Assembly: GCA_016789705.1 (NCBI GenBank)
Contig: JAEUQR010000028.1
Span: forward strand, 1-64,000
DNA: 64,000 nt
Origin: Acidobacteriota bacterium
GTDB taxonomy: Bacteria; Acidobacteriota; Vicinamibacteria; Vicinamibacterales; UBA2999
Direction: 5' to 3'
Shown here: positions 22,225 to 58,675 of the stretch, in pieces
Layout of the letters: each line of letters begins with the position of its first letter
Numbering within the stretch: the first letter of the stretch is position 1
The notes under the pieces: generated by a model
Told to the model about the DNA's origin: nothing
Database searches by the model: none
Seen by the model: the letters and a program-made list of their open reading frames with translations, nothing else
Program-made: the position numbers and the translations under genes

Positions 22225-24072
22225 ATGGCCATTCAGGATCTCAAGGAACAGATCAGCCGGCTGCCGGAGCAGCCCGGCGTCTACCTGTATGGCAATGCCG
22301 CCGGCGAGACGATCTACGTGGGCAAGGCGCGGGCGCTGCGCGACCGGGTCCGGAGCTACCTGGCGGCCCGCGGCAGCAGCCCGAAGACCGACGCGCTGCT
22401 CGACGAGGTGGCCGCGCTCGAGGTCATCGTCACCGATTCGGTGGTCGAGGCGCTGGCCCTCGAGAACAACCTGATCAAACAGCGGGCGCCGCGCTACAAC
22501 ATCCTGCTGCGCGACGACAAGAGCTACCCGTACTTGAGGCTCACGCTCAGTGAGGCCTTTCCGCGGGTGCTCGTGGCGCGTCAGGTGGCCCGCGACGGCG
22601 ACCTCTACGCCGGACCGTTCCTGCCGGCGTCGCTGGCCCGCCGCACGATCGGGCTCGGGCACAAGCTGTTCGGGCTGCGTTCGTGCAACGAGGTCATCAC
22701 CGGCAAGCGCGCCCGGCCGTGCCTCGAATACGACATCAAGCGCTGCCTCGCGCCGTGCGTGGACACGGTGTGTTCGCCCGAGCGGTATCAGCGCGCCGTC
22801 GACGACATGCGGCTCCTGCTCGAGGGCCGCGTCGACGAACTGGCGGCCGATCTCGAGGCGCGCATGCGGGCGGCGGCAGGGGCCGAACGGTTCGAGGAAG
22901 CGGCGCAGCAGCGCGATGCGATGCGGGTCGTGCAGGCGGTGGGCGCCCGGCAGCAGAAGATGGCCACGCCGGCGCTGGGTGATCGCGACGTGTTCGGCGT
23001 GGCGGTGGGCCCGGCCGGCGCCGTGATTCAGGTGTTCCAGGTGCGGCGCGGGCGTGTCGTCGAACGTGTCACCCTGCAGGGCGTCGAAGGTGACGCGGCC
23101 GAGTCCGCCGGCGCGCTGGTGGCCGCGGCGCTGCAGCAGTTCTACGAAGAGCACGAGCCGCCGCGCGAGGTCGACCTGCCGGTCGATATCGACGATGCCG
23201 ACATGACCGAGGCCTGGCTCTCGTCGCGCGCCGGGCGGCGGGTGAGCCTCCTCGTGCCGCAGCGTGGAGACCGCCGGCGCCTGGTGGACCTGGCGGTGCG
23301 TAATGCCGAAGTGGCCGTGCGCGGGGCGGCGGCGCCGGGCGGCGACGCCTTCGCGGCGCTGGACGGACTGCGGCAGGCGTTGAGCCTGGCGGGCCTGCCG
23401 CGCCGCATCGAGTGTTTCGACATCTCGACGCTCCAGGGCAGCGAGACCGTGGCCTCGCTCGTGGTCTGCGAAGACGGCCGGATGGCGAAGGGCGAGTACC
23501 GGAAGTTCCGCGTCAAGGGAGCAGGGAACGGGGCGTCGGAAACCGAAGGTTCGGGACGGTTCCTCAACGATTTCGCCGCCATGGCGCAGGTGGTGCACCG
23601 GCGCTTCTCGCGGCTGGTCGAGGCCGGGGGGCCGTTTCCGGACCTCCTCGTCATCGACGGCGGGCGTGGTCAGCTCGATGCCGCCTACGGCGCGCTCGAG
23701 CGGCTCGGTCTGGCGAATCTCGTCGCCGTCGGTCTGGCCAAGCGCGAGGAACTCGTCGTCACGCGCGACGCCGATACGCCAGTCGCCTTCGAGCGGACGA
23801 GCCCGGCCCTGCGCCTGCTGCAGCAGATTCGCGACGAGGCGCACCGCTTCGCCGTCACGTTCCACCGCACGGCGCGGTCGCAGCGCGACTTCGGCTCGGA
23901 CCTCGACACGATTCCCGGCGTCGGCCCGCGCCGCCGCCGCCAGCTGCTGACACGGTTCGGGAGCCTGGCCGGTGTGCGGCGGGCGACCCGCGAAGACCTC
24001 GTGCCGGTCGTGGGGCAACGCTGCGCGGACGCGGTGCTGACCCACTTTGCGCGCGGCCTGCCGTCACACTGA
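22225..24072 (+). CDS. uvrC: Excinuclease ABC subunit C
   Basis: 615 residues. It makes both incisions in nucleotide excision repair. The GIY-YIG nuclease is at residues 14-95 (PGVYLYG, TIYVGKA, KSYPYLRL). A UVR helical region follows near 205-245. The RNase H-like endonuclease covers about 380-545 (IECFDISTLQGSETVASLVV, LLVIDGGRGQLD, with catalytic acidic residues). Tandem helix-hairpin-helix motifs end the protein (IPGVGPRRRRQLL). Between KFRVKG and DFAAMAQVV there are about 11-12 more residues than in E. coli or Bacillus UvrC; this segment is encoded by a seven-base repeat array. Confidence 0.97.
   Translation: MAIQDLKEQISRLPEQPGVYLYGNAAGETIYVGKARALRDRVRSYLAARGSSPKTDALLDEVAALEVIVTDSVVEALALENNLIKQRAPRYNILLRDDKSYPYLRLTLSEAFPRVLVARQVARDGDLYAGPFLPASLARRTIGLGHKLFGLRSCNEVITGKRARPCLEYDIKRCLAPCVDTVCSPERYQRAVDDMRLLLEGRVDELAADLEARMRAAAGAERFEEAAQQRDAMRVVQAVGARQQKMATPALGDRDVFGVAVGPAGAVIQVFQVRRGRVVERVTLQGVEGDAAESAGALVAAALQQFYEEHEPPREVDLPVDIDDADMTEAWLSSRAGRRVSLLVPQRGDRRRLVDLAVRNAEVAVRGAAAPGGDAFAALDGLRQALSLAGLPRRIECFDISTLQGSETVASLVVCEDGRMAKGEYRKFRVKGAGNGASETEGSGRFLNDFAAMAQVVHRRFSRLVEAGGPFPDLLVIDGGRGQLDAAYGALERLGLANLVAVGLAKREELVVTRDADTPVAFERTSPALRLLQQIRDEAHRFAVTFHRTARSQRDFGSDLDTIPGVGPRRRRQLLTRFGSLAGVRRATREDLVPVVGQRCADAVLTHFARGLPSH
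23517..23558 (+). repeat. Seven-base repeat array inside uvrC
   Basis: Units GGGAGCA, GGGAACG, GGGCGTC, GGAAACC, GAAGGTT, CGGGACG, read in frame as a Gly/Ser/Asn-rich insert. The core GGAGCAGGGAACG is identical to the array at the start of prfB. Confidence 0.65.
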
Positions 24073-33250: not shown

Positions 33251-33278
33251 GGGGCCCGGGGCTCGGGTCCCGGGACCG
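33251..33278. repeat. Seven-base repeat array after rpsA (left arm of an inverted pair)
   Basis: GGGGCCC, GGGGCTC, GGGTCCC, GGGACCG in exact register, eight bases after the S1 stop. Confidence 0.75.
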
Positions 33279-33326
33279 AAGACAGACAGGAACGTGGGGT
33301 GCCGGCCGGCGTGGCCGGCATCCTTC

Positions 33327-33360
33327 GTCCCGGGACCCGGATCCCGGGACCCGAGCCCCG
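33327..33360. repeat. Seven-base repeat array before the HU gene (right arm)
   Basis: GTCCCGG, GACCCGG, ATCCCGG, GACCCGA, GCCCCG. A 19-base stretch (33342-33360) is the exact reverse complement of 33257-33275, so the two arrays can form a long hairpin ending four bases before the HU start codon. Confidence 0.75.
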
Positions 33361-41886: not shown

Positions 41887-41887
<1 letters not shown>

Positions 41888-41921
41888 GGGCTGGGGATTC
41901 GGGGCTGGGGGCTGGGGCGGG
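41887..41921. repeat. Seven-base repeat array between mutase subunit genes (five units)
   Basis: GGGGCTG, GGGATTC, GGGGCTG, GGGGCTG, GGGCGGG, beginning on the last base of the large-subunit stop codon. A GGCCTGACGGCC palindrome follows. Confidence 0.8.
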
Positions 41922-57525: not shown

Positions 57526-57553
57526 GGAGCAGGGAACGTGGCGCAGGCACAGG
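57526..57553 (+). repeat. Seven-base repeat array spanning the prfB Shine-Dalgarno and start
   Basis: GGAGCAG, GGAACGT, GGCGCAG, GCACAGG in register. The first 13 bases, GGAGCAGGGAACG, are identical to those in uvrC; the units supply both the prfB AAGGAG and its GTG. Confidence 0.5.
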
Positions 57554-58675
57554 ACGAACTGGTTCGGCGGTCGGGAGATCTGCTCAAACGAGCTGGCGAT
57601 CTCCGGAGCTATCTTTGACCGGGCTACCGGTACCGACGAACTCGCCACGCTCGAAGCCCGCATCTCCGCGCCCGACTTCTGGAAGGATCAGGCCGAGGCC
57701 CAGAAAGCCCTGCAGCGCCGCCGCCGTCTCAGTGAAGACGTCGAGCTGCGCGATTCGCTCGGACGCCGTATCGGCGACCTCGGCGTGCTGCTCGAGTGGG
57801 CGGCCGGCGGGGAGGACGTGGCCGCCGATCTCGAGCGCGGCCTGAACGAGCTCGAACACGAGATCGACACCGCCGAGACGAAAAAGATGCTCTCGGGCGA
57901 ACACGACAACTCGGCCGCGATTGTCACGATCCATCCCGGCGCCGGCGGCGTCGACTCGCAGGACTGGGCGGAGATGCTGCTCCGCATGTATCTCAAGTGG
58001 GCCGAGAAACGCGGTCTGCGGCGTGAGGTCATCGACTACCAGGCCGGCGAAGAAGCCGGTCTCAAGAGTGTGACGCTGCTGCTCGAAGGCGACTACGCGT
58101 TCGGGCTGATGTCGGCCGAGGCCGGCGTGCATCGGCTCGTCCGCATCTCGCCGTTCGACCAGGCGGCCCGCCGGCACACCGCCTTCGCGTCGGTGTACGT
58201 GTGGCCGCAGATCGACGACGACATCGACATCGAGATCGCCGACAAGGACCTGCGCGTCGACACCTACCGGTCGAGCGGCGCTGGTGGCCAGCACGTCAAC
58301 GTGACCGATTCGGCCATCCGCATCACGCACCTGCCGACCGGGATCGTGGTGTCGTGCCAGAACGAACGGTCGCAGCACAAGAACCGCGACGTCGCCATGA
58401 AAGTGTTGCGGGCGCGCCTCTACGACCTGCGCCTCAAGGAGCAGCAGGCGCGGCTCGAACAGATTGGCGGCGCCAAACGCGACAACGCGTTCGGCAGCCA
58501 GATCCGCAGCTACGTGCTGCAGCCCTACCAGATGATCAAGGACCACCGCACGAAGCTGCAGGTGGGTGACGTACATCGCGTGCTCGACGGCGAGCTGGAC
58601 CCGTTCATCAAGGGCTATCTGATGGCGAAGGCCGCCGGCACGCTGGGGCAGGCGACGCCCGACGACGACGAGTAG
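57538..58675 (+). CDS. prfB: Peptide chain release factor 2 with programmed +1 frameshift
   Basis: 378 residues after a frameshift. The first 26 codons run from the GTG at 57538 to the TGA at 57616-57618. The slip site is CTT-TGA-C preceded by TAT and a Shine-Dalgarno-like GGAG, as in E. coli. The second frame starts at GAC (57617). RF2 reads UGA and UAA, so it controls its own synthesis. SPF in RISPFDQAARRHT gives RF2 specificity, and AGGQHVNVTDSAIRI holds GGQ for peptide release. AAGGAG supports the GTG start. Confidence 0.95.

Follow-up and report, generated by a model that had tools for sequence, protein, structure and literature searches.

Heptameric G-quadruplex repeats of the GGGNATC type have been described in Xanthomonas and Nostoc, where they form convergent pairs (Rehm et al. 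2015, PMC4692102). Rickettsia palindromic elements (RPEs) are the precedent for repeats that are carried in frame within bacterial genes (Ogata et al. 2000, reviewed in PMC2229807). Our search of the open-access literature gave no report of heptamers in uvrC or in Acidobacteriota, and none of one repair-gene coding site that is filled by lineage-specific heptamers across an order. Here, we analyzed a stretch of 64,000 nucleotides (the window) from a genome of the order Vicinamibacterales, Acidobacteriota (G000), together with its relatives. Our results make it likely that the dispersed heptamer arrays of the genome itself recurrently land and expand in one surface loop of the UvrC endonuclease domain, which lies between a strand and a helix. 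In this order of soil and water bacteria, the G-rich seven-base repeats are scattered between genes. Because those in the loop vary in length and sequence between species, repeat DNA has rewritten a core protein again and again.

The window protein belongs to UvrC, since it matches the TIGR00194 equivalog model (512 bits, cut-off 285) and its catalytic residues D399, D478 and H540 are invariant in 37 UvrC proteins. The segment that separates YRKFRV from NDFAAM is 17 residues long (KGAGNGASETEGSGRFL), and alignment with solved UvrC structures from other bacteria leaves a gap of 11–12 residues at this place; the extra residues reported in the first-pass annotation are thus real. That annotation had also divided the insert into five heptamers. 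The insert DNA starts with AAGGGAGCAGGGAACGGGGCGTC..., in which GGGAGCA and GGGAACG are clear (23517–23530) and are followed by GGG and a weaker unit, GGGCGTC, but the proposed GGAAACC and GAAGGTT do not fit. Taken by itself, the insert has no significant lag-7 signal (z = 0.9), no inverted arm and no RNA structure (z = +1.5). Its remainder is possibly a decayed array or the old loop.

Structure prediction with AlphaFold2 gave an overall pTM of 0.44, and therefore only local confidence was used. Residues 433–445 of the window protein had pLDDT values below 50. The inserts of this protein and of a long-insert relative were both predicted to be disordered, with values of about 89–94 in the next helix and the flanking blocks.

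The second line of evidence offered earlier was a 13-mer common to the insert and prfB. The match is exact (57526–57538), but with 864 different 13-mers repeated on a single strand of the window, it does not point to a repeat unit. The prfB copy is the ribosome-binding region of that gene (AAGGAG, spacer, GTG), which is kept in congeners (AAGGAGCAGGGCACGTG in G003 and G004, AAGGAGCGAGGGGCGTG in G001). In prfB (57539–57620), a GTG start is followed by the usual RF2 +1 frameshift site, CTTTGAC, with conservation in each of the seven genomes that were checked. The earlier evidence from within the window alone is therefore thin. There is strong support, most of it from relatives, for the general suggestion that coding sequence can take up heptamer units as long as the frame is preserved.

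Heptamer arrays are present elsewhere in the window and its genome. When the spacing of GGG tracts in the window was counted for periods 4 to 15, period 7 gave 12 three-tract places and every other period at most three, so that period 7 was the sole spacing clearly in excess. In this genome, GGGARCRGGGARCRGG occurs four times and its reversed control does not occur. Twenty of the 23 arrays with at least four tracts were intergenic and the other three were a few dozen bases at most from the end of a predicted gene, as counted on fetched stretches of the genome with a home-made gene caller. The present arrays are mostly of the GGGGCTC/GGGTCCC and GGGGCTG types. The spacer of the inverted pair between rpsA and the next gene holds a GC-rich hairpin. 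We also noticed a run of about 40 G at C198:6337–6383 of this genome and a similar one in G001 (C4:147620); the former is perhaps an assembly or sequencing artefact. The features are listed in Table 1.

Table 1. Coordinates of uvrC, its insert and heptamer arrays in the window, and of array-bearing genes in the relative G028.
Feature	Position	Strand	Remark
uvrC, excinuclease ABC subunit C, 615 aa	22225..24072	+	open frame and TIGR00194
In-frame insert, residues 431–447 (KGAGNGASETEGSGRFL)	23515..23565	+	site hypervariable across whole order
Heptamer units GGGAGCA, GGGAACG (clear), GGGCGTC (weaker)	23517..23537	+	read from sequence
Insert remainder without clear heptamer	23538..23565	+	lag-7 z = 0.9 for whole insert
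Intergenic heptamer element, rpsA / next gene	33251..33359	.	G-first array 33251–33274, spacer, inverted array 33329–33359
Intergenic heptamer array, GGGGCTG type	41887..41917	+	2 nt past a stop codon
G028 mfd	L206 8202–11675		array-bearing
G028 uvrA	L204 1654–4236		array-bearing
G028 der	L202 1990–3342		array-bearing
G028 metH	L197 1–3540		array-bearing

We then compared the uvrC loop across the order. It was found at the same place in all 90 genomes where it could be cut, with lengths of 5–75 aa (up to 96 aa in named relatives); many genomes have loops of 5–9 aa. The inserts are read in frame in every genome examined. A frame or sequencing artefact was ruled out by the open frames in the 90 genomes, two of them single-contig. 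Most of the genomes are metagenome-assembled genomes (MAGs), in which repeats can be misassembled; the single-contig genomes G026 and G038 show the same pattern. Many inserts are plain arrays, such as GGGATTCGGGATTTGGGATTCGGGATTC...AATCCCCAATCCCCAATCCC in G028 and GGGACCGGGGACCAGGGACCGGGGACCG...GGTCCCCGGTCCC in G002, and many carry (GGGNNNN)n with an inverted copy of it behind. The heptamer state changed at least 25 times on a UvrC tree from which the loop was left out; thus, the pattern does not reflect one inherited event.

Self-matching was calculated for the 69 inserts with a length of at least 36 nt, and lag 7 and its multiples were strongly enriched (z = 25.4, 20.1 and 11.4 for lags 7, 14 and 21) against shuffles that kept only base composition and treated related sequences as if they were independent. 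Lag 7 was the best lag with z > 3 in 33 inserts, and all other lags together accounted for three. The remaining 36 of the 69 longer inserts have no significant best-lag-7 signal, and some carry other repeat types. Within an insert, the left arm resembled the reverse-complemented right arm more closely than in permuted pairs (sum 205; permuted mean 139, maximum 198, 5000 permutations), and the G-arm preceded the C-arm in all 16 clear two-armed inserts, with one more being mixed. The insert units also matched the intergenic arrays of their own genome (p = 5 × 10−5, n = 11 genomes), in permutations that take the genomes as independent, which relatives are not.

Some loops hold other repeats. REP-like palindromes occur in L031 (GTAG-tagged, GTAGTGCCCGGCTTCAGCCGGGC) and L032 (a GCCCGCCGTAGCGCGAAG... 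palindrome, GCCCGCCGTAGCGCGAAGCGCGAAGGCGGGC). A repeat encoding ASGGGAPR-like residues, possibly a third in-frame family, was seen in the uvrC loops of L169, L270 and L234 and in metH of G028 (L197).

The comparison of close relatives suggested in the first-pass annotation can be made among five congeners, in which the 150-bp flanks of the loop are 79–94% identical and, nearly flush, enclose five different inserts of 8 aa (G001), 17 aa (G000), 27 aa (G004), 44 aa (G002) and 45 aa (G003). The contrary outcome named there, namely that all relatives share an insert of one length but with unrelated codons, was not found: the lengths differ, and relatives carry unmistakable heptamer arrays at this place. 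The units of the window insert are not the dominant units of its own genome. GGGAGCA and GGGAACG are the dominant units of G001, and the GGGARCR family that includes them has 148 hits in G001, 51 in G004, 36 in G003, one in G002 and four in G000. Because these units are abundant in three of the four congeners and nearly lost in G000, we most likely see in the window insert a short array of the GGGAACA/GGGAGCA family that has partly decayed, the remnant of an older unit family.

Arrays in coding sequence are not confined to uvrC. In G028, they occur in frame in der (in the linker that joins its two GTPase domains), mfd (at two places), metH (between domains) and uvrA, and each product is still recognised as its family; others lie at the ends of four further genes (ppdK, dxr, glgA and gmhB). 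Among 30 der linkers taken for comparison, eight could be cut out and one, that of G028, had heptamers. The uvrA, uvrC and mfd genes of G028, all array-bearing, act in nucleotide excision repair, which is possibly chance. Seven is not divisible by 3, and a tandem heptamer consequently encodes the same seven-residue peptide in all three frames; for example, (GGGATTC)n gives GIRDSGF in all of them. An array is therefore free of stop codons in all frames or in none.

Outside the order, the loop is much more uniform. It is mostly 5–7 aa in other phyla and in other Acidobacteriota, with one loop of 14 aa among the Acidobacteriota outside the order. Six-tract heptamer arrays were found in 23 of 60 sampled Acidobacteriota genomes. 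Eight of the array-bearing genomes outside the order had a readable loop, and in these it was 6–7 aa long. Heptamer load by itself was thus rejected as the cause of the insert, and the UvrC loop of the order is unusually receptive, because heptamer-rich Acidobacteriota outside it keep the 6–7 aa loop. The genome G209, outside the order, has 1848 six-tract pattern matches (the listed units are mostly GGGTTCA, GGGTTCC and GGGTTCG) and a short uvrC loop.

These observations may be explained as follows. Arrays would be copied in trans from the pool of the genome into the uvrC loop, as the shared units suggest. Inserts that are divisible by 3 and without stops would survive as the loop tolerates disorder, and the 7-bp unit would help here, given that one stop-free frame makes all frames stop-free. 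They would then decay by point mutation, and newer units would replace them. Local slippage certainly adds and removes units, although alone it does not give one unit family per genome. It is not necessary to assume a function of the insert.

Slippage might nevertheless be thought sufficient, with arrays arising on short GGG seeds by local polymerase errors and no copying between loci. It has been proposed for heptamers (PMC4692102), array length varies widely, and local tandem expansion surely contributes. However, it leaves unexplained why dozens of loci in a genome have one unit in common and those of a congener have another, why the inverted arms match and why the G-then-C polarity is constant; we therefore consider slippage alone unlikely. 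The insert could also simply be a disordered Gly/Ser/Pro loop that evolves rapidly in GC-rich DNA, in which the GGG spacing of the window arose by chance. This would suit the window insert, which lacks a significant period, and GGGNNNNGGG is found on neither strand in 76 of 127 distinct inserts. On the other hand, loops elsewhere are 5–7 aa, and for the whole insert set chance is refuted by period 7 and its harmonics, the matched arms and the genome-specific units, so that we regard this origin as quite improbable.

A mobile origin, in which a RAYT (Y1) transposase moves elements of the REP/REPIN kind, was also considered. Two two-armed inserts are predicted to form hairpins (z = −3.4 and −4.2), a few loops have the REP-like palindromes mentioned above (L031, L032), and Y1_Tnp matches exist in 12 of 15 genomes. 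Tandem heptamers do not have REP anatomy, however, and G020 (98% complete) and G159 (95%) are array-bearing without a Y1_Tnp match. Because these two genomes are nearly complete, within the limits of MAGs, the transposase seems unneeded; RAYT is not supported as a required mover, and the idea as a whole is barely credible. Selection would give the insert a role: the loop of the order would be an evolved acceptor, and array length, or a putative G-quadruplex in mRNA or DNA, or the disordered loop, would alter nucleotide excision repair by tuning the level or activity of UvrC. If this is true, the heptamer pool would supply a contingency locus for repair and mutation rates. The recurrence at one site of one repair gene, the rapid length variation, the G4-type spacing and the arrays in mfd and uvrA of G028 speak for it. 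Nevertheless, lengths remain multiples of 3 with no frame switching, many genomes have loops of 5–9 aa, and der and metH are also hit; we hold selection to be very doubtful.

Recurrent landing and expansion of the arrays of the genome itself, the reading we prefer, has wider consequences. The five congeners and some 90 relatives form a natural series in which repeat DNA has been written many times into a loop of a core repair enzyme. With this series, the spread of heptamers, the maintenance of one unit family per genome and the turning of repeat DNA into protein sequence become testable. Caution is also needed, since alignments of UvrC, Der, Mfd, MetH and UvrA in this group include repeat-derived residues.

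The arrays share small size, dispersal and inverted symmetry with REPs that carry a GTAG tag and with REPINs (PMC3733652), and the uvrC loop itself holds a few REP-like palindromes; however, those elements are not tandem heptamers, and a Y1 transposase does not appear to be required for the arrays described here. The likeness to RPEs is that inverted-repeat DNA lies in frame within conserved genes and is read through and tolerated, as in uvrC and in der, mfd, metH and uvrA of G028. RPEs, however, are sequence families of 105–146 bp found in many genes, whereas no single palindromic family of that size is involved here: the heptamers are tandem, their unit and length vary by lineage, and one site is used recurrently.

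The repeats of Rehm et al. (PMC4692102) are closest. Both systems have GGG-led 7-bp units, often about four (two or three in the uvrC copy of the window), and the period-7 excess is seen in the window and the genome samples alike. Both are mostly intergenic near stop or start codons, form convergent inverted pairs (22 opposite-strand pairs G-then-C vs. 0 C-then-G in our genome samples) and differ greatly in length between relatives. The units are not generally of the GGGAATC or GGGGA(C/T)T type; they are GGGACCG, GGGATCA, GGGGCTC or GGGAACA depending on the genome, and GGGATTC or GGGAATC units occur in some genomes only. In the earlier study, 7–11% of the repeats overlap genes and their coding use was not followed up, whereas here one conserved coding site is filled in frame repeatedly, and the N4 part of the unit varies among congeners.
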